In this document: piece by piece, positions 1 through 33,801 of the stretch
Layout of the letters: each line of letters opens with the position of its first letter
Numbering within the stretch: the first letter of the stretch is position 1
From: Boothiomyces macroporosus
Lineage: Eukaryota > Chytridiomycota > Chytridiomycetes > Rhizophydiales > Terramycetaceae
Length of the DNA: 33,801 nt
NCBI GenBank assembly: GCA_027604185.1
Contig: JADGKB010000130.1
Location: 1-33,801, forward strand
Direction: 5' to 3'
The notes under the pieces: model-generated
The model's database searches: none
What the model saw: only the letters and a program-made list of their open reading frames with translations
What the model was told of the DNA's origin: nothing
Made by a program: the position numbers and the translations under genes

Positions 1-1624
1 ACTTGTACATTAAAGGTACTTTGGACTTTACCTAGAAACGGAAATGCGACCGGAAGCATCCCTGTACATATTGCTCAAACAAAGGCCTAGAGTGTGTGTA
101 TTCCCAGCAGAAGGAACTGGAGGACAAACTGACGAAAATGGAACAGAGGATAAAGCAAATGGAGCAGAATTTGTTAGTGCCAGACAGGATTAGTTTGGAG
201 AGGAAAGAAAAGGTTAAACCACCCGCACTGCGGGTGTCACTCTCTCCTGGGTTGGAAATGCTACTGTTTTCAAAAAATCACGATTATTTACTGGATTTAA
301 GATTCAAAAAGTTTCCTTGTATCACAACAGGAATTCCAGAGCAGTTTTATAGACAGTCAGCGAAGCAATTCTGGCCGCTACGATTCGCGCTATACAGCTC
401 TGGGGCTATGTTTATCAGTGAAGAGCAGCTACCATTTGGGATATCCAATCGGATAGAACTTTCGAAAATATTTCTACAAAAAGCCCAATCATTCAATTTT
501 GCCACAGTTTGCGACCATTTATCAATTATAGCTTTATCCACAATTGCCACCAATTGCTATCGTACACCAAAACTAATCTAGATCTCAACAATATACAAGA
601 GGCCCTACTATATTATCGACTGGCTCTACAGTATGCAAAAATATGTAGCATAAACTCAGAAGAAGGAATATCAAAAATTAGCCATTTCGATTATGAAAGA
701 GAGTGCATTAGGAGAATTTGGTGGTTGATTTACACAAATTACACTGTGTTCTCGAAGCACCTTGGTTATGGCACTATAAAGGACGAGGAAAATCGGATTT
801 TCCTGCCGTCCAATAGATTTTATTTCGAGTCAGCAACGCCATTGGATTACTTTGCTATTGAAGTTGTTGCGAGTAATGAATGGTATACCGTTAGCTTGCC
901 AAATCAAACGGTTGAGGCATATGCCACGCTGCTCTTAAGAATACAGTCGAAAATTCGCTATTATGTCGAAATTGAGCTGTCGCAAAAGATACCCAACCTC
1001 TCTTACATTGCAGCAACGATTAGTTCTTCTTTGAATGAATGGATGGATTCCTTTACTCCAAAACTTCAAGAAGCAATGTACATTATCGAGAATAGGATAA
1101 CTAGAGATTTGGATCTTGCTTGGCTTGCAGTATACAACGCATGTATATATAACAGCAACAGGATAAATCTAATGCTACCTAAGTTTATGAAAAACGTAAT
1201 CAAAGGAAAAAATGTTCTGCACCAGTTGTACTTTAAAGAAGCGCTGGACGCTGCAATTGCTAATGCCCAAATAGTTTCCTTATTGCTAAGATACAACCCA
1301 ACTTTAGAGTACTTTACCTCCGTAGGGCTTTTAACGCTGTTTCCCTGTGCGTTCTTCCTTTTGTGCTGCACCAAAATAGGAAATTGTGCAGTTGAAACTA
1401 TAAACATGGGATACAAGTTACATTTAGAAGGACTGAATCAATTTCGTTTGGCCTTTCAAAAGCTCAATCAATTTTACAATATTCTACTGCATCTACAAAG
1501 TAAGGATCTATTGGAAACTATAATTTATTATGGAATTTTTACAGGTAGACGGATGGACGAGTTGATGGAAAGACCAGCAGCGAGTCACGTTGAGCTTTTG
1601 GAAAATCTGAACTTGAATAAATAA
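1..1624 (+). CDS. Zn(II)2Cys6 fungal transcription factor, paralog 1 (5' end outside window)
   Basis: Putative nuclear DNA-binding regulator; target unknown. The window opens inside the zinc cluster: Cys at 4-6, then a 20-nt intron (16-35), then KRKC with C-x5-C-x2-C-x6-C spacing, matching the last four cysteines of a fungal binuclear cluster. A heptad-like linker follows (DKLTKMEQRIKQMEQNL), then a long helical region resembling the fungal transcription-factor middle-homology domain, including FDYERECIRRIWWLIYTNY. A second 20-nt intron is at 562-581. The joined reading (1-15, 36-561, 582-1624) gives 527 residues without a stop. It is the first of three tandem paralogs with the same exon structure and is the most diverged (TLK instead of VKR after the second Cys pair). 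The start codon and first cysteine lie upstream of the window. Confidence 0.85.
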
Positions 1625-1746
1625 TTATTGGCCGTTTGTCCGCTGATCAATTGAATGGCCGTAATGTTTGTCTTGGTAACTTTTGGTTTGCATTACCCAA
1701 CATTAAAATATTTCTGGGTTTGTTTTCCAAATTTTTCCAACTTTTG

Positions 1747-3408
1747 ATGAAATCACTAAAACGAAGGAAACAGACTTATGCATGCGATACCTGTGTTAAA
1801 CGAGTTATAATGAACTGATATTTAGAAGCGGAAATGCAACCATCAACGTCCTTGTTCACTCTGTATTATGCTCAAAGTGGAATGCATTTATTCAAAACAA
1901 GAGGAACTGGATAGGGACTTGAATACGATTAGGGAGCGGATACAAGCGCTGGAGCAGAATCTAATTATTCCGTTTAAATATTCGTGGGAGAGAAAGAGGG
2001 AATACCCGGAATATGTTGAAATTCAACTGTCTGAAAAACTACAAGAAGAGCTATTTGAAAAGAACCATGATAACCTACTGGATTTGAGGTTTAAAAAGTT
2101 TCCAAATGCTCTAACGATTCTTCCAGAAGCATATTATCGAGAATCGTGCAAGAGGTATTGGCCATTACGGTTTATAATGTATGCTTCTGGATCCAATTTT
2201 CTGACGGGTGATTTGCTGCCTGAAGGATTATCCAGTAGATTAGAGCTAGCAAACATCTATCTCCAAAAAGCTCAATCATTCAACTTTGCACGAAATTACG
2301 ATCATCTTACTGTTCTAACTTTGAATTCAATCGCTTCTGTTCTTTTTCGTAAATATAAGTTGATATAGATCTTGATGAAAAGGATGCATCTATCGTTTAT
2401 GTAAAGCTAGCTGTCTTGATGGCTAAAAAAATAGGGATGAATACAGAAAAGGGTGTTGGGAAAATGTCGCATTTCGATTATGAAAGAGAGAATATTAGAC
2501 GAATATGGTGGCTGATCTTTAGTAACTTTTCTCTTACGCCTGTTTCATTTGGGATAGATACCATGGTTGATGCTGATAATGAAATATTTCTGCCTTCCGA
2601 CAATTTCTATTTCGAACCTGGAACCCCTAATGATTATTATGGAATAGAGATCATGTCGAGTGCCGAGTGGTACACCTGCACACTAAAGCATCAGTCACTT
2701 CAAGGTTATCGAATGTTGCTCCATCGCATTCAGTTGAAGATTCATCGATATAATCAATTGGAGCTTTCAGAAAATAGAAATGACTTGGCATATATTGCAG
2801 GTGCAATCTCAAGCTCGTTGGAAGAGTGGAAGATTACTCTATCGCCGATTATAGACTCCTTCTTGATTAAATTGCGTTTTAACATCAAAGTTGATGTTGA
2901 AAAAGGTTGGCTCGCAGCATATCTAGGACTTGTGTATAACAGCTGTAGGATCAATTTGGTTTTAGCAAACTTCATGAAGAATATAATCAAGGGAAAGAAT
3001 GTGGAGCAGCAACTGTATTTTGTAGAAGCATTGGTTGCAAGCAAAGAAAATTCTGAAATCTTGAGCCTGCTCATACAAAATAATCCCAAATTGGAACATA
3101 TCAGTTCTGTTTCAATATTTCCAATATTTATCTGTGGATTCTTTTTGTTGTGCTGTCGCAAGATTAGTTCGTTATGTAGACCGGAGGTAGAGGCATATTA
3201 TTATTTGCACTTGAAGGCTTTGGAACTATTCTCGATTGCTTTCCAGAAAATCAATCGCTTCTACCAAATCCTACTTTCGATGGAGAAAATGTCTCTGTTG
3301 GACACGATTATTTATTTCGGGACGTTCAAGAGACGACATATGGATGAAGCTCTTGAGAAGCAAACCCCAAATCATATCGATAAGCTCAAGAACTTGTCAA
3401 TAAAGTAA
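1747..3408 (+). CDS. Zn(II)2Cys6 fungal transcription factor, paralog 2
   Basis: Predicted sequence-specific regulator, 539 residues. ATG at 1747 is followed by a basic stretch and CDTCVKR, then a 22-nt intron (1804-1825), then KRKCNHQRPCSLC, which completes C-x2-C-x6-C-x5-C-x2-C-x6-C exactly. A short coiled-coil-like linker (residues about 50-70) precedes the helical regulatory domain, which has the conserved HFDYERENIRRIWWLIF motif. The second intron is 20 nt (2349-2368). Spliced length is 1620 nt, divisible by three. Retention of intron 1 would end the protein about four codons later, before the zinc cluster is complete. It lies 122 bp after paralog 1 and 153 bp before paralog 3 on the same strand, so local tandem duplication is likely. 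I see no clue to the target pathway. Confidence 0.9.
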
Positions 3409-3561
3409 ATGCAAGAAATTATGGACAACTCACAATTCTGAAATATCCCTATAGCAAAGTGATCTGGCAACTATCGTAGGATGGAAGACTACTTTAACTG
3501 GCTGTAAACACAAAAATGCAAGCCAAGAAATTTTTTTGAGGATAATTTTTCAGTGAAAACA

Positions 3562-5216
3562 ATGAAGAGCGTTTGGCGCCAACGGTTGTCCTGTGATAAC
3601 TGCGTCAAGAGAGTAATAATAATTTAATTACAGAAGCGGAGATGTGATAGGCTTCAACCATGCTCCTTATGCTCTGCTCGAAGGGTTGACTGTGTTTATT
3701 CTAGAAACGAACTGCAGGAAAAACAACTAGAGTTGATGGAAGACCGGATTAAAACTTTGGAGCAGAATCTGATTACACCTTTGAAATATTACTGGCAAGT
3801 AAAGAAGCATCAAGTTGAAGGGCCGAGCATTCCAGAAGTCTATCTATCAAAAGAATTGGAACAGTTTTTATTTGAAAACGACCATGATTATTTATTAAAC
3901 TTGCGGTTTCAAAAGTTTCCCAGTGCGACAACGATTGTATCAGAACAGTACTATCGCGAGTCCGCAAAGCTGTATTGGCCGCTACGGTTCGTGCTTTATT
4001 CTTCCGGATCAAATTTTGTGACGAATGACATGCTACCAAGAGGGATTGTGAACAGGCTTGAATTGGTAAGCATTTATCTCCAAAAGGCACAGTCATTCAA
4101 ATTTGCTAAAGATTACGACCATTTGACCGTCTTGACATTATCTACCATTGGATCTGTCTTGTTTCGTAAGCAGAGTTAATAATAGACTCGGATAAGAAGG
4201 AATCAATGCTTATTTATACAAAGATGGCAATTGAAATGGCGAAAATATTGAAAATCAACACAGAAGAAGGAATTGCCCGAATCACCCCTTTTGATTATGA
4301 GAGGGAACACATTAGACGAATATGGTGGCTTCTATATGCCAATTTCGCCCAAATTCCCAATTCGTTTGGTGTTGACACCATCTCCAACTCGGAACAAAAG
4401 ATTTTTCTACCATCGGACAACCCATATTTTGAATCAGCTACCGCAAATGATTATTTTGGAATAGAAATAATGTCCGATTTGGAATGGTACACTCCTTTGA
4501 TTCACGATCAGTCAATTCAGGGATATAGAATTTTACTTCACCGTATACAGCTTCAAATTCATCGGTATAATCAAATTGAATTGCTTGAAGATTTAAAAGA
4601 AGCATCGTTTATTGCTGGCTCCATTAATGCTTCTTTAAAAGACTGGTTTTTAGTTTTTCAACCAAAACTTGCTCTTCATCTATTCAACTTGAAGAACAGC
4701 GTTTCAGAGAATCTTGAAGAAGCTTGGCTAGCCGTCTATTTAGGTATTGTATATAGCTCCAACAGAGTCAATTTGGTCTTGGCCAGTTTTATGAAAAATG
4801 TAATCAAAGGGAAAAAAGTTGCTCACCAGTTGTATTTTAAAGAAGCAGTAGAAGCAGTGTTAATGCATGGTAGAATACTACAGATAATTATCGAGATAAA
4901 TCCCAGTTTCCAACAAATTAGCACATTTACCCTCCTTCCTTGCGCGTTTTTCCTTTTATGTTGCAGAAAGATACCCCAAGTACACTCCTCTGAAATCGAA
5001 AGAGCATATCAACTTCATTTAGAGGGATTCAAATTGTTTTCTCTTGCTTTTCAGAAAAAGAGCCGACTTTACAATATTTTGCAGTCTATGGAAGCAATGC
5101 CCATTGTGGATGCCATAATCTATTTTGGGATGTTTAAACGAAGGAATATGGACGAAACCGTAGAAATTCAATCAATTAACCATATAAATCTCATGAGTAA
5201 ATTATCAATAAAGTAA
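3562..5216 (+). CDS. Zn(II)2Cys6 fungal transcription factor, paralog 3
   Basis: Third tandem member, 537 residues. ATG at 3562 begins MKSVWRQRLSCDNCVKR; a 21-nt intron (3613-3633) interrupts the zinc cluster at the same codon as in paralogs 1 and 2, and KRRCDRLQPCSLC follows. A linker coiled coil (ELMEDRIKTLEQNL) and the helical regulatory region with FDYEREHIRRIWWLLY follow. The second intron is 20 nt (4166-4185), again at the shared position. Spliced length is 1614 nt, in frame. The sequence is closest to paralog 2. Downstream are tRNA-Pro and the duplicated monooxygenase; Zn2Cys6 proteins often control neighbouring catabolic genes, so the monooxygenase is a candidate target, but no operator was recognised. 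Confidence 0.9.
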
Positions 5217-5320: not shown

Positions 5321-5393
5321 GGGCCAATGGTCTAAGGGTTATGATCCTCGCTTTGGGTGCGAGGGGCTCCCGGTTCGAGTCCGGGTTGGCCCC
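5321..5393 (+). tRNA. tRNA-Pro (anticodon TGG)
   Basis: A 73-nt cloverleaf: acceptor GGGCCAA pairs with TTGGCCC, discriminator C. The anticodon stem CTCGC/GCGAG encloses loop TTTGGGT, giving anticodon TGG. The T arm is CCCGG-TTCGAGT-CCGGG. The internal A box (TGGTCTAAGGG) and B box (GGTTCGAGTCC) are typical of RNA polymerase III promoters. No intron. The large duplication starts two bases after its 3' end. A second copy, identical over the visible part, sits at the right edge of the window on the other strand. Confidence 0.97.
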
Positions 5394-5395
5394 AC

Positions 5396-8207: not shown

Positions 8208-8287
8208 TGTGTTTGGGAAGTGCAAAATTTCTGTTATCAGTCGTTTGAATTTTTTTTGTTTAAATTTGTGCCTCAACCATTGGCAAA

Positions 8288-11130: not shown

Positions 11131-12301
11131 TTACTCTGGGACCAAAATGCGCTTCCCATTCTGAAATCCATTCTCTGGTCTTGACGCTATCTTTACCAAC
11201 TGGCCGTCTGGTAGATCTTTGAATGACCAAGTTTCATGAAGAGGTTCCTTGAATTTGTTTTGCTTTGCAAGTTCAAACAAGTCCGAATAAATGGCAACCC
11301 GTGCACTATCAGGCCTATCAGTAGCCCATTTACTCATCCAAAAGCCAGTGCACGTCAAGTTTTTAAATATCAGCAGTGACGTTGGGATAGTGACTGGTTC
11401 TTTGGACATGCCGCCATACGTAACCATAAATGCGTCATTCCTATCATTAACTACGCGTACGCCAACAATCTTGCCATATTGGTAGCACTCTTTCCACCAA
11501 CTCCGTTTAATCCTAATCTCGGAATACCCAGATCTTTGATCTTTTGCTCTGTTTCAGCTTTTCGCACCTGGTCTTCTGTAATTACCAAATCTGCCCCCAG
11601 GTCAGCCAAGGATTTTGCAAGACTTTCAATATCAGGTCTGATTAATACATAAATACCTGTTTCTAACAATATTCACAGTTTTAAATCCCCAGGCCCTTGC
11701 TAATTGAATCACTGCTTGACCAACTGCCGAATTGGCAGAATTCTGTATGATCACATCTCCCTTTTCTAAAGCAACAAAGTCCTTGATCATTCTATACGCT
11801 GAAATTAATGTGAAATACCAGTTGGAGGGTTAACAGAGATAGTTGAGGCAAGTATTGGGGATATCCCTTTTATATTTTCCAATTTTACCACACTATTAGC
11901 ATTTGCGGCAGCGAACGTTTGCCAGGTGTCTATTTCAGTCTTGAATTACTAAATGACTGTTTCACTGGTAATACCCAATCGCCAGGTTTTAGGTGAGATA
12001 CATTTGACCCTACTTGAACCACTTGGCCAACGCTATAGTTAGTGAATCTCACCCTTCCTGCCCGCCAATAGCACCCATATCCGTCCATATCGGCTTAATT
12101 GGATAGGTTCCTGAATTAGCAAAAGCAACCTTCAATGATATTAATGTCAGATGGGTTCACTGGAGCCGCGAGCACTTTAACTACCACTTGGTCATCATTC
12201 ATTTTCAACTCGTAGTTCCTGACCGACAGCACTGTTTCTGGCTTTCCGTGTGATTTGAAAAATAACGCTTTTGAAGTGATTCGTCTTATTTGCCGATACA
12301 T
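11131..12301 (-). CDS. ETR1: Mitochondrial trans-2-enoyl-ACP/CoA reductase (MECR/Etr1 family)
   Basis: Medium-chain dehydrogenase-fold reductase that performs the last, NADPH-dependent step of mitochondrial type II fatty acid synthesis, which supplies octanoyl chains for lipoate. Spliced product 350 residues. N-terminus MYRQIRRITSKALFF is basic and Ser/Thr-containing, as in a mitochondrial presequence. Family motifs in order: VNPSDINIIEGTYPIKP, GAIGGQEGVGQV, LKPGDWVLPV, VNPPTAYRM, QNSANSAVGQAVIQLA, IVRNRPDIE, LNGVGGKSA, MVTYGGMSKEPV. Six introns: 12111-12129, 12033-12052, 11930-11949, 11799-11818, 11638-11656, 11441-11460 (19 or 20 nt each). Spliced length 1053 nt is in frame. An ATG at 12325 is also in frame but would overlap the divergent gene's start, so 12301 is preferred. 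Confidence 0.93.
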
Positions 12302-12316: not shown

Positions 12317-14146
12317 ATGAATCATCAGTTTAACGCTTCACAATTCGTGAACGCTGACGGTACACCATGGTTATTTTTATCTAATAGAAAGGAGTCAAGA
12401 TCAAGTAAACCAGTATTTTGTTCAGAACCCTCATCTGATGCAGCAATACCAGCAATACTACCAGCAGTACCAGCAATATTATAGCCAGTAATTAGAGTTA
12501 ATCCAAGATCTTATGGAGTACAATCCAACCCCGTTACGTATCAGCAATATCCAAATTATTCTGGGACTCAATACAAACTGGCAGGATTTCAACAACGGCA
12601 ACAGCAACCGGCAAAGCCTCCGGTATTGGAACAAAATAGTACTTGATCGCTAAAGCAGACCATCAAGGTAGTCAAGGTTGGCCAGACAGTTTGAAGAGCT
12701 ATTTAAGCAGAGCAATAAACTCTAGCACCCCCGCAACAAAGAGCATGATTGACCTAAAGCTGAAAAAAGTAATCGGTGTTGCTATGGATACTAATGCAGT
12801 CTGGACAACAGATTGGGATCGCATGCCTCTTCCAGAGTAATTTTGCATTTATCCAGTCCATTTACTTCCCCAGATCATATTCCATCCGTTCCTCCAAGAT
12901 TAGCACCAGCTTACCTCCAGGCTGCTATATCAAAAAAGCACAACACCCCATCGCCATTAGACATCTCGCCAAAGGTAGGGTCTCCTAGCATGAATTCCCC
13001 ATTGGGGTCAAAAAAATCATCTAAATTATTAACCAAATCAAAAGGGAAAGCAGCTGTATCCAGTCCATCTATAGGAAAAGGGATTTTCGATTCCGATTCA
13101 GAAGACGAAAAAGAACCAGATATGAGTAATCTTTCACCAGCAGAGCGAGAAATTGAAATCAAAAGAAGGGAGCAAAGAAGAAATAGATTTAAAGCAGATA
13201 AAGACGAGCATCTAACTAAACAAAGAAAGAAAAAGCAACAATCGGACCGGTTTGAAAGGGAAAGACAAGAATTTGGGGACGATCACCAGGATTTTGTGAA
13301 TTGGGATGGAGTTTCTATAATTGGAACCTGTCAGGATCTAGAAAAGCCTTATTTGCGATTAACTTCAGCGCCAGATCCTTCTACTGTTCGCCCACTTAGT
13401 GTGCTAACAAAGACTTTGGAATATCTCAAAGAAAAATGGAAAAAGGAAGAGAATTATACTTTTATTTGCGACCAGTTTAAGAGCATGCGACAGGATTTGA
13501 CAGTGCAACAGATAAAGAATGAGTTTACAGTTAAAGTTTATGAAACACATGCCAGAATAGCTATAGAAAAGGTTTTTAGTTACTAAAACAGGGCGATTTG
13601 GGAGAATATAACCAATGCTCTGCACAGCTGAATCAACTATATAACATTTTTAACCAACCAGGCTGCAAAGATGAGTTTACGTCATATCGTATTATTTACA
13701 TGCTTCATACCTTCAATAAGAAAGATCTTATAAAGCTATTGGGAAGCATAACTGATCCAGGGCCGAATGTAAAGCACGCACTTGCAGTGAGATCGAGCTT
13801 ATCAATGGGAGATTACAATACATTCTTCAAGTTATACCATTCAGCACCAAATATGTCTGGATATTTGATGGATCAATTTGTGGAAAGGGAGCGTTTGAAT
13901 CTATTCAAGAAACTTACCAAGGCATTCAGACCAAAACTATCGATACCTCAATTAGCAAAGTTTTTAGGATTTGCACTGTCAGACCCGAGGAAAAATGAAA
14001 TCAGAGAAACCAGGGCATTTGTACAAAAGTATGGAGTTGAAATTGAACAAGATCACGTTGATTGCAAAGCAGCGTACGGGATACTAGTTGAGCAGGTACA
14101 GTTAATGGAAAAGAAAGGTGTTGATATTAAAGGCCAAATACATTGA
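12317..14146 (+). CDS. SAC3/GANP-domain protein of the Thp3/LENG8 family
   Basis: Thp3-type proteins act in the nucleus in transcription elongation, mRNA export coupling and splicing, with Csn12-like partners. 575 residues. Layout: [10 protein letters not shown], then a Gln/Tyr-rich tract (about 30-95), then [12 protein letters not shown] and DWDRMPLPE (the LENG8/Thp3 N-terminal block), a Ser/Pro linker, a basic coiled-coil segment (about 255-320), then [19 protein letters not shown] and the SAC3/PCI region containing [17 protein letters not shown], through GQIH. Introns: 12370-12391 (22 nt), 12488-12507, 12639-12658, 12837-12856 and 13572-13591 (20 nt each). Spliced length 1728 nt is in frame. 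The first intron was chosen because it preserves the Q/Y-rich frame; a shorter AG choice would create a stop. Confidence 0.88.
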
Positions 14147-14434: not shown

Positions 14435-15381
14435 ATGTCTACGGCAGCAACACTAGTAATCATTGCAACGACTTCATTTGTGGGATACCAACTATTGCGA
14501 ACTAGAAAGATTACTAAAATGAATAGCGGCCTTCCCTTCCCTCACACTTACATGTCGCATAGAGGAGGATCTAGAGAGTGGGTGGAGAATACTCTTCCCG
14601 GCTTTAGGTATTCTGCTTCCATCAACGCCGATATTTTGGGTTTGTATTGATTTATATTAGAAATGGACGTCCAAATGACCAAGGATGGAAAAATTGTAGT
14701 GTTCCATGACAATACATTAGAGAAAATGTGCGGATTAAAGACAAAGATTTCCGACTAGTACTCCCTGTTAATAGTAGCGATTTCAAAGACCTGCCAAAGC
14801 TGATTATCCCAAAAGATTTGCAGGACAAAAAGGAAGTGGTGGAGAATCCAGATTCGTACCGTATACCTCTCTTTGAAGTGATTTTAAATGAATTCCCGAA
14901 TAGCGCGATGCAGATTGACTGTAAGAATGGGCCAGAGGAGCTTGTGATTCAAGTGGGCAAATTGATACAACACCACAAGAGAGAGAAAATTACTGTCTGG
15001 GGATCGTTCAAACCGTCAATTAATGACATGTGCTATAAGCACTTTGGGGATTCAATACCGTTATTTTTTGACATGTACAGAGGATTCAAATCAGTGATGC
15101 TTTACAAATTGGGGCTTTTGAACATTATGGAGTTCAGGGAATCTGCTCTAATATGCCCAGATATGACATTATTTGCGGATAAAGGTTATGTCAAAGCAAT
15201 GAACAGCAGGGGAGTTTCCGTGATTTACTTTGGTAGTGATGGTAGTGGTGCCTTGAACGATCCTGCTAAATGGGAGAGAGCTAGGTCTCTTGGTGCAAAC
15301 GGAATCTGTTCCGATAAGCCAACTGAATTGAAAGAATGGTTGAAATCACATCCTCTTGATAAAGTTGAAAAGTTAGAATAA
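14435..15381 (+). CDS. Glycerophosphodiester phosphodiesterase-domain protein (GDPD1/3, lysophospholipase D-like)
   Basis: Likely hydrolyses lysophospholipids or glycerophosphodiesters at the glycerol-phosphate bond. 301 residues with an N-terminal hydrophobic anchor (residues about 3-22). The GDPD signature is complete: H42-R43 in SHRGGSREWVENTLPGF, metal ligands E69 and D71 in LEMDVQMTKDG, and H84-D85 in VVFHDNTL; the C-terminal part has MQIDCKNG and ANGICSDKPTEL. A membrane-anchored N-terminus plus one GDPD domain is the design of mammalian GDPD1/3. Introns 14640-14660 (21 nt) and 14758-14777 (20 nt); in the latter an AG three bases earlier would give an in-frame stop, so the distal AG is used. 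Spliced length 906 nt. It is followed 12 bp later by the YbaK-like gene. Confidence 0.9.
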
Positions 15382-15392: not shown

Positions 15393-16026
15393 ATGTATTT
15401 TGAAAGGTTCCTTGCAAGAGCGAAATCCCAACAACACAGTAGTATTCCGGATGCAGCATTACAGGTGATTAATGCCGCAAAAAACTTGGGAATCGATGAT
15501 GTCAGTAATTTTTACTCTGTGGAGTCAGACTACTATGAATGGCCATTAGAGCAACGCAAAGAGCGACTGGAAGCCCCCTCTGTCGACCACCTTTGTAAAT
15601 CACTCTTGTTTGAAAACACAAGGTGGAGACCCAAAGATGGCCAAGATAACGAACTGGACCATTCGCATCCCAAATATATCCTGGTAGTCGTTCAGTATAC
15701 CGACAAGATTAACAACAAAAAGTTGAATTTGCTAATGAAGGAATGGGGACAGCAAAGCGCCAAAGCCATAAATATGCGCATCGCACCAGAAGAAATGGCG
15801 ATTAAATTAACTGGGTATGGGAATAACGGTGTGACTCCAATTGGAATGCTGGAAAATGTGCCTGTACTAGTCACTGAAAATATTGCCAAATTAGATGTAA
15901 GCTCTTTTTTAATTTTAGCCTCCAGTTTTGTTTTTGGGCGGTGGACATGTAGACTGGAAAATCGCCCTTCCAGTTGATAGATTTACAAAAGTCACGAATG
16001 CCAAAATTGTTGACCTTGGAGAATGA
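15393..16026 (+). CDS. YbaK/aminoacyl-tRNA deacylase-domain protein
   Basis: YbaK/ProX-type domains hydrolyse mischarged aminoacyl-tRNAs. 203 residues after removal of one 22-nt intron (15897-15918). Recognisable features are the strand-rich core around KYILVVVQYTDKINNKKL, AINMRIAPEEMAIKLTGY, the GVTPIGMLENVPVLV segment and LFLGGGHVDWKIALP near the end; the G-x-TPxG and GGG motifs are typical of YbaK folds. The substrate is unclear: fungal members of this clade often remain uncharacterised. Only 12 bp separate its ATG from the stop of the GDPD gene, so its promoter lies in the upstream gene or the two are co-transcribed. No targeting peptide is obvious. Confidence 0.8.
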
Positions 16027-16263: not shown

Positions 16264-19200
16264 ATGCAAAGGTTGGATATTTCTAATCCTAGTGAACAAT
16301 TAGCTATACAGCTGAATGCGAAATACCCTACCCTTAGTAAAGACGGGCTGTTGAAGATGAACAAAGATCTTGAAGGGTTGAGCTCTGCGTTGCAACAGAA
16401 AGCCATCAATCTCTACGCTCAAGCTACTCGCGAAGGCGCATTGGATGCTGCTGAGCAAGTGTTGCTTCTAGAGAACATCCACCAAGAAGTCTCACTTCAA
16501 ACCAATGTTAGCTTGCTGGTTTCCAACTTGATTTTGAAACATGCAAATGTGCATGAAAGAGTAGCCGGCTGGTTTGATAAAGAAAAGCCTCTTCTTCCTG
16601 TTATTGCGCGAAAGATTATTCTTCCTGCTATTGTGCGTTCATCAGCCCCTGACGATTTGATTGTCAGCTTCTACAAGCGATCATCTAAAACAGTTCAAGG
16701 ACTATTGATCAAGAACTGCATCAGATTCAGAAGAACAAAGCTCTTGGACGTGATTGTAAAAGACAGAGGTAAATATTCTTTAAACATAGAAACTTATGGA
16801 TTAACCAGCGCGCAAGTTTGTAGCATGCTCTATACTATCTCTGGAGAATGTCTAGCAGGTATATTGGATGATTATTGGGTCTACAGCTCCAATGTTCCAT
16901 GGAGTATGATTCTAAAGTATCACAAGGATGTTGTTTTTGATTATTTTGCTGCCAAAGTGTCAAAATTGGCAATCCTTGACAGATACAATGAATGGAGCAG
17001 GCTCTTTAAATACTTTGACTCTACTTTTCCTGTTCAGTTCCTTCACAAAGTTGTCCACCTATATTTAAAATATCCTCCAGTTCAGCTCTATCACTATGCT
17101 GTGATAAAGAAAGATGAAAAAATCACAGTTGATGATGATAGAATCGAACTTGCTTTCACGAGCGACTTACTCATTTCTACCAGAAGAACCAACGACATGA
17201 AATTCTGGATTTCCTTGTTGGATAACGAGTTAAAGAGCCCTAATTTACTGCTAAGAAATCTGGCCAAGCAAATATGGAATTGGATCAACGACAATTGCGA
17301 ACAGGGCTCTAAATTGGATATGAAAGCTGGATTAGTTTTGGACTCGTTCAAGGAAATCAAGAATATCATTCATCAGAACAATATCGTGTACGATTACAGT
17401 GCTTCATATGAACCTTTCAACAAGCAAAAATACGTAGCTGAATTCGTTATGAATTCATTGGAGAAGAATCAGTGGCCTTCAGTCGCGAAAACAATCCAAT
17501 TGGTGGATAACTGGGAAAAGATTTTGATTACCGCTTTCGATGAATTGAAGCCCTTCTTGGAACAAAATAACTTTAGCGTATTGGTTGACTCTTCCACAAT
17601 CACAAAGATATGCAGGACCAATTTCATCGATATCGCCACCAAGATCATTTCAAATATTTTGAATAGCTTCAACAGGAGAATCAAAGCACTGTATTTGAAC
17701 GCAGACAAGAAAGATCCTGCAATTGGAACTCATTTGCTGCTCGATGGCTACAAACGACTGTTTGCTTTTTACAGAAACGTGATTGACAAAATGTTTAGTG
17801 TCAAAATTACTGAAGAAAACTATTTCGAATTCCAGGAAACAGTGTTTTTGAAACTGTTCTTCAGCTTGAATTCTTCTGTAACAAGCATCACAAAATTGGT
17901 TACCGACCAGATCACAATCGATAACTTTTCCTTTGCCAACAGTAGCATTCCTGCTGGTCCTTTGAATGATTACTTTGTAGCATTAAGGGGTGAAGTATTC
18001 TCACTCTACTCTTTGTTTTGGAAATGGTATGATTTTGGACCAAAAGTTCGATCAGTTTGGACAAAGATTCTCAAATCTGTCACGGTTGATGTCAATGACA
18101 AAAAGCTGCTGGATCTATTCAACAAGATCAGACCAATCTTTTTGAATATTATTGATACTTGTCCAGTTGATAGCTGGTCTCCCTTTGTAGAAGAATTGTG
18201 CGATTTCTGGTTGGTCAAGTACGAAAAGGTTCAGTTTGACCACTTCCAGTTGATTAATGACATTTTATCAAAGGCCACCTACCACTATATGATGCTGGGT
18301 AAAGTAGACAATCTTCACAAAGTTGCCAACACTCGAATTGCCTTTTACGCATTCAATTTGAATCTAGGAACATCCATCTCTGACTGGAAGAATGACGAGC
18401 ACAGCTTGTCTTTCTTGGAATCATTTTTAAGTTTCCTTCCAGGTATCGGAGTGCTGGAGAAAGGCTTATCACTGGACATGTTCTTTTCTGAAGATACTAT
18501 CCAAAATTTCATAAAACTGCTTGGAGATGCAGTCGAGCTTTTGCCAAGTCACAACAGAGTGCTAACTTTATATCGAATTTTGAACGTTTATGACTACACA
18601 AAAAAGAGCATCAACGATGATATTGTCAAAAGAATCCTCGTTTATCTTGAAGGATTGCCAAGAAGAGATTCGTTGTCCATGTTCTTTGATGAAGATTGGT
18701 CAGTCAATGACAAAACAAAGGATCCAACAACCTTTGAAATCTATCTGTCACCACATATCAACCCTTACGACAGAAGATTGCAAAGAATGATTTTACGCCG
18801 ACAAGCTTTGATTAGAGAACAGCCAGACCGATTGAATTATTTTACCAATGCTGTAAAAGTAGCTATGGATTATGTACAACGCAACCAAAAGATCATTACC
18901 AAAGATACACTGTTGCCTGTTTGTCAATGGGTAGAAAGCAAAATTCGAAGAGTAGAATTCACCAGGTTGGGTGTCAGTCACCCGGTTTTGCAAATTTTCC
19001 CTCGCTTAATGGGTGCCTATCTCCCAAAGACTTCACCTTTTGATGAAAAGCATTTGCTCCATAGCTACGAAAGCAATGTCAAACTTATTGAAGTGCTGAA
19101 CGAGATTATTGAAGATCGATACAACTGCGAGCCAACCGCATATCCTGCAATCAATGAAATGTTCCAGGGGTATGTTGAACAGATTACACTTGGAATGCTG

Positions 19201-22258: not shown

Positions 22259-22483
22259 TTATTCAGGGGGATGCACGGTGTAAGGGGGAAGTGCTTCTTC
22301 TACTGGCGGCTGGTGTTCTATATTCCCTAGAGTAACCAAAGCTTTTAAATATGCTTGTCTAGCTTTCACAATCTTTATAAATACCAGCAAGATTGATACC
22401 GATACAACAAAGAACGCTAGGGACTATGGTTAGGGAAATGCTACTATCCACGGGTTCTGGCTGTTTTCAGGCGGATGGTCCAT
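22259..22483 (-). CDS. Small single-pass membrane protein with LPPY motif (67 aa, spliced)
   Basis: Two exons (22483-22445 and 22423-22259) joined across a 21-nt intron (22424-22444) give 67 residues; too short and split for an ORF scan. The N-terminus MDHPPENSQNPWI leads into a hydrophobic helix (SLAFFVVSVSILLVFI), then KIVKARQ predicts a cytosolic tail ending ALPPYTVHPPE. NPW before the helix matches the 130-aa protein; the intron lies right after this NPWI. LPPYT resembles PPPYTPEL of the 109-aa proteins. Splicing is required: without it the reading stops within four codons of the junction. Confidence 0.75.
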
Positions 22484-23046: not shown

Positions 23047-25441
23047 ATGGATCAGGAAAATCCAGAGTGGAAGCCAACGAACCAAATCTCACTCAATATC
23101 CAGCAATTACAGTTGAAAATCAGCAAAAACCCTTGGGACAATGAGGCTAGAGAGCAGCTGATAAGGGAAACTATAAAGTTGGGAGACAATGAACAAATTG
23201 ACCAAGCGTACAGAGGATTCTTGGATCAGTTCCCTACCTGCGTACTTGAAATTAACCATAGGCACGCATATGGCTAAAGTACGTAGAACACACACACTCA
23301 ATCCAAGATTTCAAGAAGCTGGAAGAAATATTCAAGTCTTGCATCCAAAAAGTTCCAAATGTTCAGCTATATAGCAAGTATGTTGATTATATTATTGAAA
23401 TACAATCAGATTTTGAAACTGTTGTTTCTACTTTTGAATATTGTTTGAAAATTGTTGGCACTGATAAAGACTCTGGCGATTTGTGGCATAAATACATTAC
23501 TTACTGTCAGCAACACCAAGTAATCGATACTAATCACAGACACAATCCAGTTATGAAGATCAGCAAAAGATGGATCAGCTGCGAAAGATTTTACACAGAG
23601 CAGTTCATACTCCATTGAACAATATTGAAGAAATATGGAAAGAGTATGATACATTTGAAAATCAACTGAACAAGCTAACTGCTAAAAAGTTCATATCTGA
23701 TCAAGCCGGTGGATACATGACTGCAAGAGCCTGTTCTAAAGATTTAAAAACTTTGTTGGAACCGATTGAAAAAATACAACCAAAGTGGATAGCAAAGCCT
23801 CCAACCTGGACTACTAACCAGATACAATTATTGAATTACTGGAAGCGGTACTTGTCGTGGGAACAAAGCAATCCGCTGGGGCTAGATAAGGAGTCTTTGA
23901 TTGCGCGAGTTCTTTATGGTTATAAATGCTGTTGGCTAATGTTGAAATACTTTGTTGAAGTGTGGTATGACTGTGCTTGTTTTCTAAGAGAAAATGAAAA
24001 GGCAGAAGAAGCAATTTCAATCCTCAAACAAGGTATCGCCGAAAACCCATCTTCACTACTGTTAAACTTTACATTAGCTGAACATTACGAACAGAAAAAA
24101 GTACATTTTACAGAAATTCAAACATTGTTTGATAGTTTGCTAAAGCTGCTCGAAGAGAATTATCAAGCCTCGAACGAAAAGTTTGATCAAGAAAAAGAGC
24201 AGTTGAAAAGCCTGTTGAGGGAAAATAGTTTTATGGAGGATGATGGCGAAGCTAGAGAAAGGGAAAGAGAAATTGCAAAAGGTAAGGAATACTAATATAG
24301 AACATGAAAGAGAAGTCTATCAAAGAATTGAAGTGCCAAGAATGAAAAAGAATGAAATGTTTAAACAGAGTGTAAGTTTGGTGTGGATTGTTTACATGCG
24401 TTTGACAAGACGAAGTCAATCTATAAAAGCTGCCCGTATAATATTTGGAAAAGCCAGAAAGTCAACTCTAGTTACCAGCCATATCTATGTTGCGTCTGCT
24501 CTTATGGAATATTATGTCAATAAGGATGCAGTAGTAGCAGGTAAAATCTTTGAAGCTGGTTTAAAGCAATTTCCAATTAATGAAGATCCTCAAGCTGCTG
24601 ATTTCATTTCTCATTATATTGAATTTTTAAAGTGTTTGAATGATGACAACAGTAACATTGACTAATGTAGATACCAGAGCTTTGTTTGAAAGAGCGTTGT
24701 CGCAGATTCCACCAGAGAGGTCTAGAGCATTGTGGACTAAATATATAGACTATGAAACTCAATATGGAGATTTGTCGAATCTATACAAGATTGAAAAGCG
24801 GTTAGGCGAAGTATTCCCCACAGGTAATAGCAATTAACACCAGAGGATGTGAATTCAAATGAATGGGCTGTGAAAATCGCCTCCAAGTGGTCATATTTTG
24901 ATATATCTTATGTTGGCGAACTAGAACTAGGTCTCAAGCATTTAGAAAGTGTTCCAAGAATACCTGCTCCTGCGCAATCAAAGCAAGTGCAAAATACACT
25001 AATGCGTAATGATCAAGGGAGACAGATTGCAATGTTGGGAGGTGTAAATGTAGATCAATATCCAAGACCAGAATTTGGAAAGTGGAACTTTTACAGGGCC
25101 GAACCTGGGCAAGCTAAAATCTGCAAAATCACCGAGCTAGATCAACCTGCTAGCGAACCGGTTGTTAGCACCATCAAAAAGAAGGATTTGCCACAAGTAC
25201 CAGAAGCGATTGCAAAGCTGATGGAAAAGCTTCCACCAAAGGATAGCTACAGCGGGCCTTACTTGAATGTCGATGAGCTGGTATCTTTCTTGATGCGGTT
25301 AAATATCCCAGTTAGTTTAGGAAAGATGGTTAATGCGCCTGATCGAGATTACAAACTGGGAATGAAACGGCCACGCAATGATGATGACGGTAAGCTTATA
25401 GTAACTTAGGTCGCCATTCAAAGAACTATCGAACCGATTAA
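23047..25441 (+). CDS. RNA14: Cleavage stimulation factor subunit 3 / Rna14 homolog
   Basis: HAT-repeat scaffold of the nuclear pre-mRNA 3'-end cleavage and polyadenylation complex (CstF77/Rna14). 758 residues after removing six introns: 23242-23261, 23520-23539, 24282-24300, 24652-24670, 24824-24843, 25390-25409 (19 or 20 nt). Landmarks: ARIWLKYVEH HAT repeat, LWHKYITYCQQHQ, LNNIEEIWKEYDTFEN, SLVWIVYMRLTRR, RIIFGKARKS, ALWTKYIDYETQYGDL, then the C-terminal region with LPPKDSYSGPYLNVDELV, corresponding to the CstF64-binding monkeytail area. Spliced length 2277 nt is in frame. The last intron sits just before the stop: spliced it ends RHSKNYRTD, unspliced it ends KLIVT. ATG at 23047 gives the expected N-terminus. 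Confidence 0.93.
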
Positions 25442-25571: not shown

Positions 25572-27749
25572 ATGCCTAATCAATTTGTTAGCAAAACCTC
25601 TTATAGGGTATACAAGACGAATGACGCAAGGACATTGATAGAAAATCCAGCTCGATTGGATATTAATGGTGCGGAGCCAACCACCATGTTGTCAATTACT
25701 GATACTGGAATCACCGTGGGAGGTAAGTGTCATTAATCAAGACAAGAGCGCAATCTTTCCTGCATCGCCTAATGCCATCATTTTCACTCAAGAAATCATG
25801 GGTTTGGTAGGTGTCATTGAGTTATCATTTGGGAAATATTTGTTGGCAATCACTTCGAGAAAGCTTGCAGCGACATTGCAGACACACAAAATCTGGAAGA
25901 TTACGGGTGTTGTGGCTATTCCCATTGGAGCTGGAAAGCCTGTCGATATCTCTGCACTTCCGGATAAAGATTTGGGAAAGCATGCGATTGATGAAGAAAT
26001 CCTAAAGCAAATCAAGGAAATCTTCCATGCTGGCCGCCTTTACTATTCGAATACTTATGATGTTACTCATTCTATCCAACACAACTACTTTTCGAAAGCT
26101 ATGAAGCCAACATCCACAATTGTAGATGATCGCTACTTTTTCAATCAGAACTTGCAAAAGGATTTGATTAAAGGTACATTCCGTTAATATAGCAAATAAT
26201 GCTGAAAATGACACTTCTCCATGGATCACCAAAATCATCGCAGGGTTTGCTGGAACTATTGACGTTGATTTGAAAGAAAACGAAAACAAAGCAATCACTT
26301 ATCAAGTTTTGTTAATTTCTCGTATCAATCATAGGCGTCTTGGGACCAGGTATGTGCGTAGAGGGTTAGATTATGAAGGAAACGCAGCCAATAATGTTGA
26401 AATGGAACAAATTGTGTTGAACCAAGATTTCCTCAAGGATAAATCCCTCAGCTCGTATGTTCAATTGCGTGGCAGTGTTCCTTCTATCTGGGGTCAAGAT
26501 TTGGACTTGTCGTATCGACCGCGTTTGGTTTTGGCTGACATCAAGAATGAATCAATTTGGAAGCCAATCAAAACCCATTACCAAGATTTGAAGAATCAAT
26601 ATATTGGTGAGCGTGGATTCCAAGCTGGAATGGATAACGGAACGGTTGTTTGTGTCAATTTGTTGAATGACGATGGGTTTGAAGGCCCATTGAGCAACAT
26701 TTACGAAAGCACTGTAAAGAAGTTTGGTGATTCTAAAATCAAGTACGAAAACTTTGCAATGAACAAGTTCTGTAAGAATGGAAACTTTGACAAGATTGAA
26801 ATCCTAAAAGATCGTGTGCATCTACCACTCATTAACAGCGGCTGGTTTGTTGCTGAAGGCGATGTGCCTTCGTTACAATCAGCTGGCACTTTGCGTGTTT
26901 CCAAAATTCAAACTGGAGTTGCTCGAGTATCTTGTTTGGATTCGTTGGATCGCACCAACTTGACTTGCAGTATTTTTGCACGATACATGCTTCCTTACCA
27001 AGTGCAAGGAATTTCGCCTGGGCTACCATCTGTTCAAGTTTTACCTGCTACTGGTGTTGCACCATCTGAAGTTCGTGATACCGTTTCTACCACTAGAAAA
27101 GCTTTGGAAGGATGCTACACTAACCTCACATGCTTGTGGGCAGACTCTGGTGACAGCATTTCTTTAATGTATGCTGGAACTGGCGCGTTAAAAGCTGATG
27201 TTACTAGATCAGGAAAGAGACAGATTCAAGGATTGTATAATGACGGAATGAACTCTTTGACGAGATACTACTTGAACAATTGTAAGGTTGATATTTAATT
27301 TAGTTACACATGGACATTTGCAGGATACCTATGACCTTTTGACTGGTAAACTCACCGTTGAAAAAATCAATGAGCTTGCTGAAGTAGAAGGGCCAAAGAG
27401 AGCAAAGAGAATCAAGAGACCACTGGTCCAAAGAAATAATTTCCCAGGAAATATTGTCCCTTCCACAGTTCTTAACATTGTCGAGCCGGTTTACTTTAAC
27501 GCCAGAGAATATTTAGAAAACAGCAAAACATCACAAAAAGAAAAGAAGGTGGTTGATCGTGTATTAACTGTGATGAAAGAAGTTGCTCCAGAAAAGATTA
27601 ACACTATTTTTGAACTAATCTGGGCAATGTACATCTTCTTTTGGATCTTTTTGATTACCAAATTGCTGAAAATCCAGGGACAGACAGTCGTTGATACTCC
27701 AAAATTGACAAAGGAGATTATTGAATTGAAAGCAATCGAGAAGAAATAA
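25572..27749 (+). CDS. SAC1: Sac1-type phosphoinositide phosphatase
   Basis: ER/Golgi lipid phosphatase that removes the phosphate from PI4P. About 705 residues from ATG 25572 (MPNQFVSKTSYRVYKTNDAR), with introns 25723-25741 (19 nt), 26174-26192 (19 nt) and 27282-27303 (22 nt); spliced length 2118 nt is in frame. The SAC domain shows IIFTQEIMGLVGVI, GRLYYSNTYDVTHSIQ, RRLGTRYVRRGLD, FVEAEG-like FVAEGD, and the catalytic C-x5-R-T loop CLDSLDRT with nucleophile Cys442. Most homologs read C-M/L-D-C-L-D-R-T; the second Cys is Ser here. The C-terminus has FELIWAMYIFFWIFLITKLL, a membrane anchor, and ends in Lys-rich KAIEKK, compatible with ER retention. It is 130 bp after RNA14. Confidence 0.93.
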
Positions 27750-29416: not shown

Positions 29417-30833
29417 TTATTGTTCTGCATTTTCATCCATCTTCTTTACTTTACCTTCGAGCTTCAAGTCATTGCCAGTGATGCGCTTGTAGATGCTCTT
29501 TACATCTTGGCAAGTAGTTTCAAAGTGGGAGGTAGAATCGTAGGACTTGGAAATGAAAATTCCATCTTCCTTTCCGTCAGCAATTGGTTCATAAATCTTT
29601 TTGATATCAACGAATTTCTCTTGGATAGATCCCAAAAGAGCTAAACCAGCTTCACACTCCTTTTCTGGGGAGTCAGTTTCAACAATGGTAGATACGATAG
29701 CAACAAAGTAGTCCTTGGCACAAACATTGTGTGCAGCAGAAACGGCAGCAACATAAATATCATGCTTTCTCTTCACTTGGTTTTGAGGGATGACCAATTG
29801 AACAGAGTCAGCATCTCCAGTGTTTGGAATTGGGTGGTTCAAGAAACAGATGATACGAACAACCTTGCCAACCTCCTTGACCTTTTCAGGGAAGTATGAC
29901 GGATCACCAATGACAGCCTTTGTTTTGGCAACCTAATTTTAAATTTGAAATTACTTCTCCTTCACTCTTTACTCCAACGACCTTTCCGTTTTCATACACG
30001 ATTTCTTCAACTGGCTTGGAGAGCATATAAGTGCCACCATAAATAGCACTCAATCTGCAGTTAACAAATAGCTACCTAGCAAACCCTTGAGGAAGCTCAC
30101 CAAGACCATATAATGGATAGATATAAGGAGATTTACCATATCTGGCCATGGAATTCATGTACAAACAAATGCGTTCGTAGGTATCACGGGCTGGCTGATT
30201 CATGTAGGAATCGTCCAAGTGCAATGCCAAAGCATGACCAATAAAGTCTTGAGTACCTGGTTCCAATCCAAACTTTTTGTAAACTTCAACCATGGTGGCA
30301 GTGTTCAAATCGACACCTTGCTGAGTAGATGGGTTGGTAAAGTCATAATTTTGAATAAATTCAAAAAAGCTCTTTGCACGACGCTTTTCAAACAATCCCA
30401 TCAATGGAGACATCAAGGCTTCTTGCTGATTTGCAGGTACTTTGCTAATCTTTCCATCACGATATACAAAGGATCCTTCGATTTGACGGAATTCGAGATA
30501 GCGAGTAACATCGGTGTGATAGAGAATATTGACAAATTCTCCAGAAGCCATGGCGAATTTTGGAATCAAATCAACATTGTAATCACGATCACGCCCGAAT
30601 TGAGTTGGTGGAGCCATGCCTTCTCTGAATTTACGGTAGAGCTTTGGTTAAGTTATTTATACTTGAGTGAGGTTCAAACTGGCTGATTCACCACCATAGT
30701 AATCATTGCGATCCATGTGCAGAACTTTCTTGCCTTCAACACTCAAGAGACCAGAAAGGATACATTCTGTGAGACCGGTACCTAATACAATAACGTCGTA
30801 TTCTTCATTCTACGGGTTAGCAATATGTACCAT
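29417..30833 (-). CDS. GDI1: Rab GDP-dissociation inhibitor
   Basis: Cytosolic protein that extracts prenylated GDP-bound Rab GTPases from membranes and recycles them. 443 residues, normal length. N-terminus [20 protein letters not shown] holds the Rossmann-like GxGxxE motif, then [76 protein letters not shown] and [15 protein letters not shown] are family landmarks. Introns: 30810-30830, 30642-30662, 30055-30075 (21 nt each) and 29933-29954 (22 nt). The first intron directly follows the ATG, so exon 1 contributes only the start codon. Spliced length 1332 nt is in frame. Confidence 0.95.
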
Positions 30834-32702: not shown

Positions 32703-32744
32703 TTTTTAATTTAGTAATATAGTTTAATTTTTTACCTTTTTAGC

Positions 32745-33666
32745 ATGGATGTTTTTCAGCAGTACAAATCAATCGATACCACAGGTGAGAAGCGTGCGTC
32801 TGTTGCTTTGATAATAAGAGAGCGAGAGGGACTGGAAATATTTTACATTCGCAGAGCACACAATCCGAGAGATAGATGGTCCTCTCATGTATATTGACTT
32901 AACCCAGATTGCATTTCCTGGCGGAAAGAGAGAAAAGAATGAAACCGACTTGGAAGCATGTAAAAGGGAAGTTTTGGAAGAAGTTGGATGGGACTTGGAC
33001 GGAACAGAGTAATTTCAAGTTGATTTCAGATTTGAACTATTGGGGAGACTGGATGACAGAGAAGTAAAAGCACCCGCTTCAGCTAGAAGGGTTATGGTAT
33101 TATGCTGCTTTGTATTCTTGCAGAAAGAGGATGTTGCCATCAAAACGGATCCAAATGAAATATCGCTTGTATATTGGGTTCCAGTAAACGAAATTCTGGA
33201 ATGCAGGAGGTGGGAAGCAGTCAGTTTCCCTATTACCCAGCATCTATTCCAAGGAACTAATAGTATTTTGAATGCTCTTGTTGGGTCGTATTCCTTTTAT
33301 GGAGTCCCTATAAATGAAAATCGAAGAGCGGAGCATATTATTGAAGGCACACCACGACCATCAACTGCCCATAGATTATTTCCATTATGGGGATTGACCT
33401 TGTGGATGACTAGTGACTTTCTAGAGCAACTGGGCCATCCATGCATTGGGATTTTGGGAAAGCCTCGATATTCTTCACCTGAAGTTGACTTATTCATTAG
33501 CTTGATGTATACTAAAAAGGACTTACAGACTTCACTGGTTAGAGATAGAATGCGGTTTGGATTAGGCTACATAACAGTTGTTCGGGTTGCAGTCGCGCTA
33601 TCGTTGACTCTAAAAGCTGCAGGGGTCTATGCGGTCTTTAAATTGGTCGGAAAATTAAGAAAATAA
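32745..33666 (+). CDS. Nudix hydrolase with C-terminal hydrophobic segment
   Basis: Nudix enzymes cleave nucleoside diphosphates linked to another moiety. 293 residues after removal of introns 32890-32908 (19 nt) and 33009-33029 (21 nt); spliced length 882 nt. The Nudix box (residues 54-76) fits G-x5-E-x7-R-E-U-x-E-E-x-G-U exactly, with REVLEEVGW; the first intron splits it from the RWSSH segment just before FPGG. RRAHNPRDRWSSHIAFPGG resembles the fungal CoA-diphosphatase (Pcd1/NUDT7)-like group, but the substrate cannot be fixed. The C-terminal third has TVVRVAVALSLTLKAAGVYA, a possible membrane helix, before KLVGKLRK, which is unusual for a soluble Nudix enzyme. The ATG at 32745 is 42 bp after the GATA-like gene. 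Confidence 0.88.
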
Positions 33667-33747
33667 AACCAAATCTAAAATACTTTTTATTATTTGCTAC
33701 TGTTTCATTTAATGGCAATGATGTGCAGCATTGAAAAATCAAAAAAT

Positions 33748-33801
33748 GGGGCCAACCCGGACTCGAACCGGGAGCCCCTCGCACCCAAAGCGAGGATCAT
33801 A
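33748..33801 (-). tRNA. tRNA-Pro (TGG), partial at window edge
   Basis: The reverse complement matches the 3' 54 nt of the tRNA-Pro at 5321-5393 exactly: anticodon loop TTTGGGT, T arm and acceptor 3' strand with discriminator C. The 5' part is outside the window. Confidence 0.93.

Follow-up and report, generated by a model that had tools for sequence, protein, structure and literature searches.

Contig JADGKB010000130.1 of Boothiomyces macroporosus (assembly GCA_027604185.1) raises the question of whether a fungus can use introns of only about 20 nucleotides (nt) as its ordinary kind and, if so, how its spliceosome recognizes them. The window studied here is the whole of this 33,801-nt stretch (positions 1-33801 of the contig), taken from a 15.2-Mb genome in 216 contigs. 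A sequence-only reading had assigned the DNA to a fungus and proposed that every intron is 19-22 nt long, that introns converged on one narrow length, and that the spliceosome defines the intron within about 20 nt, a challenge to the steric room for U1 and U2 together. The host was correctly recognized, as the encoded proteins match Boothiomyces, a chytrid (Rhizophydiales, Terramycetaceae). Our results indicate that the elements are very probably normal GT-AG introns of the U2 type that have contracted to the smallest frame accepted by the B. macroporosus spliceosome.

Introns of the window and their effect on the encoded proteins

The gene models of the window were rebuilt by hand from the output of a learned gene finder, and each intron was checked for reading frame and consensus. 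The gene finder had fused the Zn2Cys6 genes B and C, placed two wrong introns in gene C, overrun the end of a gene for a 1791-amino-acid (aa) protein and cut an open frame at 31900-32193; these faults were corrected. The final models hold 36 introns in 13 genes (Table 1), seven of 19 nt, 17 of 20 nt, eight of 21 nt and four of 22 nt. The total and the counts at 19 and 20 nt agree with the sequence-only reading, which had listed seven introns of 21 nt, five of 22 nt and 12 intron-bearing genes. As it had stated, all 36 introns run from GT to AG. All 13 spliced coding sequences are divisible by three in length and free of internal stops; the contig begins inside the first of them, which is therefore truncated on its 5′ side. 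In two of the 36 introns (12639-12658 and 14758-14777) an in-frame AG that would give 17 nt is also present, and a run with a uniform length prior chose 17 nt for the latter.

Removal of the introns also restores protein family motifs, as had been claimed. Nine of the 13 intron-bearing proteins were run through Pfam and gave matches to Zn_clus (two genes), ADH_N with ADH_zinc_N, SAC3_GANP, GDPD, tRNA_edit, Suf, GDI and NUDIX. Within these matches lie 21 of the 29 junctions, one exactly at the first residue of its match; the GDI match (747.5 bits) spans four introns and the Suf match of RNA14 (492 bits) spans five. Zn2Cys6 gene A and a 67-aa gene were left out of this run, SAC1 was compared with relatives instead, and the first 427 aa of the 1791-aa protein (gene 16264-21660) gave no Pfam match.

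Three tandem Zn2Cys6 paralogs (A, B and C) lie at the contig start, at 1-5216. The paralogs have diverged, and by eye both intron positions are common to all three, with lengths of 20, 22 and 21 nt at the first position and 20 nt in each gene at the second. The UBC gene of the window has no introns.

Public protein models of B. macroporosus and its relatives were compared with the spliced products. Over 99% of its length, the window RNA14 shows 100% identity to its public B. macroporosus counterpart. The public protein is continuous across five of the six junctions, reads into the sixth intron and ends in GKLIVT, and the Terramyces RNA14 protein is continuous across all six. The spliced end of the window model (GRHSKNYRTD) matches that of Terramyces (GRHSKSYRTD). 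Intron 6 (25390-25409) is therefore probably real and was overlooked by the annotators, so that the C-terminus of the public protein is probably wrong. SAC1 shows 95% identity to a Boothiomyces sp. JEL0866 protein that is continuous across all three junctions, and Isy1 shows 96% identity to a Boothiomyces sp. JEL0838 protein. The public proteins examined (RNA14, SAC1, Isy1) are already without most of these introns, which means that annotation software has already met them. Gene finders with a larger minimum intron may nevertheless damage such genomes, since even the public RNA14 model misses one intron of about 20 nt.

Length distribution beyond the window

The wider sample comprised the window and bases 10001-20000 of each of 20 contigs, which were picked non-randomly by contig number; with the window, these 20 stretches add up to 233.8 kb or 1.5% of the genome. 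A Viterbi gene model with decoys superseded two scans: a joinable-frame scan with a short exon requirement, which gave a bump at 19-21 nt in heavy noise, and a stricter codon-score scan, which lost almost all sites (five GT-AG at 19-22 nt). The Viterbi model was run with a length prior uniform over 15-300 nt and with five decoy dinucleotide pairs as control; later gene models allow GT-AG introns only, other pairs being confined to the decoy run. With GT-AG we obtained 54 introns, 28 of them at 19-22 nt, and with the five decoy pairs together 106, of which seven were at 19-22 nt.

In a second run, donor, branch and acceptor weights were learned and the length prior was still uniform (15-300 nt). 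Of 257 introns predicted in the 234 kb, 179 were 19-22 nt long (43, 78, 45 and 13 by increasing length), two were 15-18 nt, five were 23-30 nt and 71 were scattered thinly over 31-300 nt. The lower edge of this distribution is sharp, with 43 introns at 19 nt vs. none at 18, one at 17 and one at 16 nt.

In a third run the length prior was learned as well, and 288 of 311 introns fell at 19-22 nt. In the strict set, restricted to genes scoring at least 8, this was true for 269 of 289 (58, 117, 72 and 22 at 19, 20, 21 and 22 nt), 20 nt being the commonest length; 35 of the 269 lie in the window and 234 in the 20 stretches, each of which has 3 to 24. The intron density is about two per predicted gene (278 in 124). 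The window served as an error gauge for the learned prior: two of the 35 introns called there were rejected (4066-4086 and 4832-4851), and three of the 36 hand-checked introns were missed. The uniform-prior run and the motif-spacing map described below are independent of this prior. The other 20 of the 289 predictions measure 30-294 nt. The four of these that lie in the window were examined and judged to be gene-finder errors, as one fuses two genes, another skips the stop of the 1791-aa gene, a third follows that stop and the last removes an open frame. In-frame stops were found in 57 of the 72 introns of 21 nt vs. 121 of the 197 others (Fisher p = 0.008). This excess was not used as a sign of stop selection in introns of 3n length, because the gene finder sees stopless 21-nt introns less easily, which would produce the same bias.

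Ten proteins from other contigs, of 19 that met the criteria, were run through Pfam, and 41 of their 45 junctions fell within matches. For one repeat protein, a match to any TPR family was accepted in this count, which also includes a junction lying exactly on the first residue of a domain. Tiny introns are also predicted on further contigs in the genes for Prp8, Slu7, SF1, U2AF65, U2AF35, Cwc25 and Isy1. The proposed convergence on one narrow length is therefore upheld by the 234 predictions outside the window, at least three per stretch, and by the splicing genes, and a narrow distribution below about 25 nt, as in genomes with ultra-short introns, extends across the sample. That every intron is 19-22 nt long is true of the window and fails for the genome, where Isy1 has a 46-nt intron with homology support; its removal joins ELFEQA to AQM, which matches ELFEQAAEM in Globomyces and the JEL0838 protein. 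Introns just above the range are predicted in Slu7 (23 nt) and SF1 (24 nt).

Two short spacings underlie the narrow length

A model-free map was made by counting GTA, YTRAY and HAG on both strands at all spacing pairs. Four adjacent cells contained 45, 46, 38 and 30 occurrences vs. 3.37 ± 2.0 in the 1445 others (maximum 14), with weaker shoulders of up to 12 next to the peaks. No second class stands out from 2 to 60 nt before the branch motif and from 0 to 24 nt after it. Among the 269 predicted introns, 200 have the branch A at position 14 or 15 followed by 5 or 6 nt. The four classes (14+5, 14+6, 15+5 and 15+6) hold 49, 51, 54 and 46 introns, the two spacings being independent (chi-square p = 0.57), and make up 74.3% of the set, compared with 7.7% after shuffling of the intron interiors (200 shuffles, highest 13.8%). 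Since each spacing has two settings, used independently and almost equally, a ratio of about 1:2:1 results for 19, 20 and 21 nt. The hand-checked window introns are distributed over the classes as 6, 9, 6 and 6 of 36, and those of the splicing genes as 6, 4, 2 and 1 of 16; the latter count omits the 23- and 24-nt introns and two Isy1 introns, one of 22 nt that is disputed and the one of 46 nt.

A YTRAY-like motif is present in 265 of the 269, so the branch motif noticed just before the AG in the window is general in the sample. The donor is GTA; A is preferred at +4 (58%), G is scarce at +5 (20%), and the base before AG is T in 64%. In the common classes only 3-4 nt separate the branch A from the final AG, and there is no polypyrimidine tract. 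The pattern GTA N8-9 TRAY N1-2 HAG is matched by 154 of the 269 introns. Across the 177 kb of predicted gene span it has three other sense and eight antisense matches, and between genes it has 14. Within genes, motif and spacing thus nearly suffice to mark an intron, for the part of the set that the pattern covers. The 46-nt Isy1 intron keeps 6 nt after its branch A, and, judging from these very few cases, the 3′ spacing may tolerate less variation than the 5′ spacing.

These results bear on whether the introns are an annotation artefact, produced by chance GT..AG pairs or by small assembly indels that join frames. A free search does accept false introns, as seen from the 106 decoys and from the four window predictions above 22 nt, all judged wrong. 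The decoys, however, have no peak at 19-22 nt (7 of 106), and the motif-spacing map needs no gene model. With two intron positions common to three paralogs, junctions within conserved domains and agreement of the public proteins, we consider an artefact highly improbable.

Alternatively, the introns may be real and obey no ruler, deletion bias having brought them down to one minimum so that the narrow range is simply a floor. The sharp lower edge fits this explanation, as does the tolerance of longer introns (46 nt in Isy1; 24 and 23 nt predicted), and for mikrocytids deletion bias working against a floor has been put forward as the explanation (PMC10245619). Yet a floor predicts mostly the minimum length with a decaying tail, whereas the observed lengths peak at 20 nt (58/117/72/22) and both spacings have two settings of similar frequency. 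We regard this explanation as possible, at less than even chances.

The splicing components identified appear ordinary

The expectation of an unusual spliceosome was not supported by the components identified. The U1 small nuclear RNA (snRNA), which starts at its 5′ end with AUACUUACCUG, has the canonical recognition motif ACUUACCU, and its match of 68.8 bits is just below the family cut-off of 69.5. The canonical motifs are likewise present in U2 (GUAGUA) and U6 (ACAGAG). U2 snRNA is encoded by two genes (C80:60682-60874 and C178:9607-9797). The pair differs mainly in the 3′ half, and the branch-recognition region is common to both.

All eight splicing proteins sought were found, namely Prp8, Slu7, SF1, U2AF65, U2AF35, Cwc25, a Yju2/Saf4-family protein and Isy1, so that among these a strongly reduced spliceosome of the mikrocytid or microsporidian type is not borne out. 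For the U2AF subunits, human sequences were used as queries; residues 199-435 of human U2AF65 match at 51% identity (227 bits), and U2AF35 matches in pieces at 51-71% identity. The predicted Cwc25 starts with MGGGDLN and thus has an intact glycine motif, the plug reported lost in Stentor. Cwc25 was found twice with identical scores (C49:3194-3481 and C100:4789-5076). Predicted Isy1 starts with MAPKTLAQKQE, the same 11 residues as in the public JEL0838 protein, while six of eight other fungi aligned start with MARNEEKAQSMLYRF or within two residues of it; Globomyces differs, and one model starts later. An Isy1 N-terminus adapted in common with Stentor would be no more than a lead, as our model (L036 1225-1280) and JEL0838 disagree on the joining of the first exons just downstream of the start.

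In principle the elements could be non-spliceosomal insertions, subject to translational bypass, DNA elimination or editing and merely intron-like, and their length is indeed far below that of usual fungal introns. Their motifs, however, match the U1, U2 and U6 recognition sequences of the same genome, and the splicing genes themselves contain them. A like geometry in Stentor is treated there as spliceosomal (PMC9505925). Taken together, these observations make a non-spliceosomal origin scarcely credible.

The 3′ end might be recognized by an SPF45/RBM17-type factor instead of U2AF. The 3-4 nt between the branch A and the final AG, which leave no polypyrimidine tract, would agree with this, and human short introns with truncated polypyrimidine tracts provide a precedent (PMC8363638). 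Against it, both U2AF subunits are kept, at the identities given above, and we consider such a replacement rather unlikely.

A possible mode of recognition

The anatomy of the introns consists of a 5′ GTA, a YTRAY motif with its A mostly at 14 or 15, and mostly 5 or 6 nt from there to the end of the AG. U6 base-pairs with roughly the first 8 nt of an intron, and U2 with some five bases ahead of the branch A. The 5′ spacing may thus consist of these two paired segments with hardly any linker between them, its 14-15 nt corresponding to their sum. At an earlier stage, with U1 covering +1 to +6 and U2 covering +9 to +15, the two would almost be in contact; the steric argument of the sequence-only reading is likewise interpretation. 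Because the 3′ spacing leaves no polypyrimidine tract, hardly anything beyond the AG and the first bases of the exon would be available to U2AF. Each intron would be recognized as one unit by motif and spacing, that is, by intron definition, and its length would be held from below by a steric floor and from above by lost spacing recognition or deletion bias, so that the upper limit may be soft.

In yeast, Slu7 is dispensable at short branch-to-AG distances. As Slu7, SF1 and U2AF are all kept in B. macroporosus despite the tiny spacings, we favor a model in which ordinary machinery defines the intron through motif and spacing. More tentatively, and with less than an even chance in our judgment, the introns may be read through two independent spacers (14 or 15, and 5 or 6 nt) with ordinary U1, U2 and U6 motifs and the retained SF1 and U2AF. 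Separate U1 and U2 footprints and a polypyrimidine tract would find no room, so that an A complex of the yeast or human type could not form, and recognition would proceed by hand-off or by a merged U1-U2 contact rather than in a standard cross-intron A complex. If two spacers are read in this way, a culturable relative of well-studied fungi would make the recognition directly testable.

Several points weigh against the view of ordinary introns held to a smallest frame. Splicing itself is deduced from sequence, and the mechanism beyond the anatomy is interpretation. The sample covers 1.5% of 15.2 Mb, namely the window and one fixed interval in each of 20 contigs. The 269 introns of 19-22 nt come from automatic prediction under a learned length prior, and 76 of the 257 uniform-prior predictions exceed 22 nt; viewed as a whole, most of these resemble a flat false background. 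The rulers are not absolute, as 69 of the 269 introns fall outside the four spacing classes (four of them without a good branch motif), and the homology-supported 46-nt intron of Isy1 indicates that the 5′ spacing can be much longer.

Relation to known ultra-short introns

Ultra-short introns are a kind already known, and those of B. macroporosus come close to the lower limit on record for any organism. In the ciliate Stentor coeruleus they measure 15-16 nt, about 4-6 nt less than in B. macroporosus, with the branch A at position 10 of 15 (PMC9505925). The two systems share GU-AG ends, AU-rich introns, a conserved first GUA, conserved snRNAs, a branch A at a fixed place and a 5-nt tail; they differ in that Stentor has one main spacing (10 or 11, plus 5), compared with 14/15 plus 5/6 in B. 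macroporosus. For Stentor it was proposed that loss of the Cwc25 glycine motif and changes at the Isy1 N-terminus may prevent a collision with the sharp lariat (PMC9505925). Stentor Cwc25 is reported to be without the N-terminal motif, whereas that of B. macroporosus is predicted to have it, which argues against the Cwc25 part of the proposal.

Chlorarachniophyte nucleomorph introns, at 18-21 bp (PMC10245619), have a nearly identical length range, in a relic endosymbiont nucleus as opposed to the 15.2-Mb nuclear genome of a fungus. Mikrocytid introns of 16-17 nt are likewise uniform and tiny. These organisms, however, are parasites with 17-19 spliceosome proteins identified and 224 introns in 179 genes (PMC10245619), vs. 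eight of eight sought proteins and about two introns per predicted gene in B. macroporosus. Paramecium resembles B. macroporosus in its single very short length class; its introns are longer and those of 3n length are under pressure (PMC5014332), whereas introns of 21 nt are common here (72 of 269). The type B introns of Trichomonas vaginalis (about 25 nt, shortest 23) are also short and have the branch site near the 3′ splice site, in an intron-poor genome with 24 such introns and a further class of 56-196 nt (PMC12316389).

In the open-licence library searched, we found no report of ultra-short introns in chytrids or other fungi. As far as searches of that literature reach, the new elements are the fungal host, the recognizable splicing factors and the two-by-two spacing rule. 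In the earlier cases (ciliates, a relic nucleus and parasites), tiny introns could be put down to an odd or reduced spliceosome; in the chytrid, machinery nearer to the solved spliceosomes would act on 20-nt introns. It thus offers a test case for the minimum RNA needed by the spliceosome and for the Stentor Cwc25 proposal.

Table 1. Hand-checked introns of the window, numbered in the direction of transcription.
Gene	Intron	Length (nt)	Position	Strand	Remarks
Zn2Cys6 gene A	1	20	16..35	+	same zinc-cluster place as in B, C (by eye); gene 5′ end cut by contig start
Zn2Cys6 gene A	2	20	562..581	+	position common to paralogs B, C (by eye)
Zn2Cys6 gene B	1	22	1804..1825	+	within Zn_clus match (PF00172, 37.5 bits)
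Zn2Cys6 gene B	2	20	2349..2368	+	frame, consensus, shared position
Zn2Cys6 gene C	1	21	3613..3633	+	within Zn_clus match (33.7 bits)
Zn2Cys6 gene C	2	20	4166..4185	+	frame, consensus, shared position
ETR1-like dehydrogenase	1	19	12111..12129	-	within ADH_N match
ETR1-like dehydrogenase	2	20	12033..12052	-	within ADH_N match
ETR1-like dehydrogenase	3	20	11930..11949	-	frame and consensus only
ETR1-like dehydrogenase	4	20	11799..11818	-	frame and consensus only
ETR1-like dehydrogenase	5	19	11638..11656	-	within ADH_zinc_N match
ETR1-like dehydrogenase	6	20	11441..11460	-	within ADH_zinc_N match
SAC3/GANP family	1	20	12488..12507	+	frame and consensus only
SAC3/GANP family	2	20	12639..12658	+	frame and consensus only; 17-nt in-frame alternative
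SAC3/GANP family	3	20	12837..12856	+	frame and consensus only
SAC3/GANP family	4	20	13572..13591	+	within SAC3_GANP match
GDPD	1	21	14640..14660	+	within GDPD match
GDPD	2	20	14758..14777	+	within GDPD match; 17-nt in-frame alternative
Aminoacyl-tRNA-editing domain	1	22	15897..15918	+	within tRNA_edit match
1791-aa gene (16264-21660)	1	21	16769..16789	+	frame and consensus only
67-aa gene	1	21	22424..22444	-	least well supported of the 36 (short gene; model score 9.5)
RNA14	1	20	23242..23261	+	public model continuous across
RNA14	2	20	23520..23539	+	public model continuous across
RNA14	3	19	24282..24300	+	public model continuous across
RNA14	4	19	24652..24670	+	public model continuous across
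RNA14	5	20	24824..24843	+	public model continuous across
RNA14	6	20	25390..25409	+	retained in public model; spliced end matches Terramyces
SAC1	1	19	25723..25741	+	JEL0866 protein continuous across
SAC1	2	19	26174..26192	+	JEL0866 protein continuous across
SAC1	3	22	27282..27303	+	JEL0866 protein continuous across
GDI1	1	21	30810..30830	-	directly 3′ of ATG; GDI match starts at residue 1
GDI1	2	21	30642..30662	-	within GDI match
GDI1	3	21	30055..30075	-	within GDI match
GDI1	4	22	29933..29954	-	within GDI match
Nudix	1	19	32889..32907	+	within NUDIX match
Nudix	2	21	33009..33029	+	within NUDIX match

Other features of the contig and genome

A perfect head-to-tail duplication of 2751 bases without mismatch (5395-8145 and 8146-10896) starts directly after a transfer RNA (tRNA) gene, tRNA-Pro, and holds an FAD-binding monooxygenase-like gene (PF01494) and a small open reading frame. 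It represents either a very recent duplication or an assembly artefact. The tRNA-Pro is located at 5321-5393, with an inverted copy at 33747-33801; as the contig ends inside this copy, the contig break probably lies within a repeated tRNA. ARAGORN found two tRNAs in the window and none in the 20 stretches. An RRM gene was found twice with identical scores (C20:74251-74478 and C20:119318-119545), and the paired copies of this gene and of Cwc25 reflect either segmental duplication or unmerged haplotypes. Three small proteins (7542-7871, 10830-11075 and 22259-22483) have, by eye, one hydrophobic span and a proline-rich, PPxY-like tail (PPPYTPEL, LPPVYRAE and LPPYTVHPPE) and perhaps form a local family.

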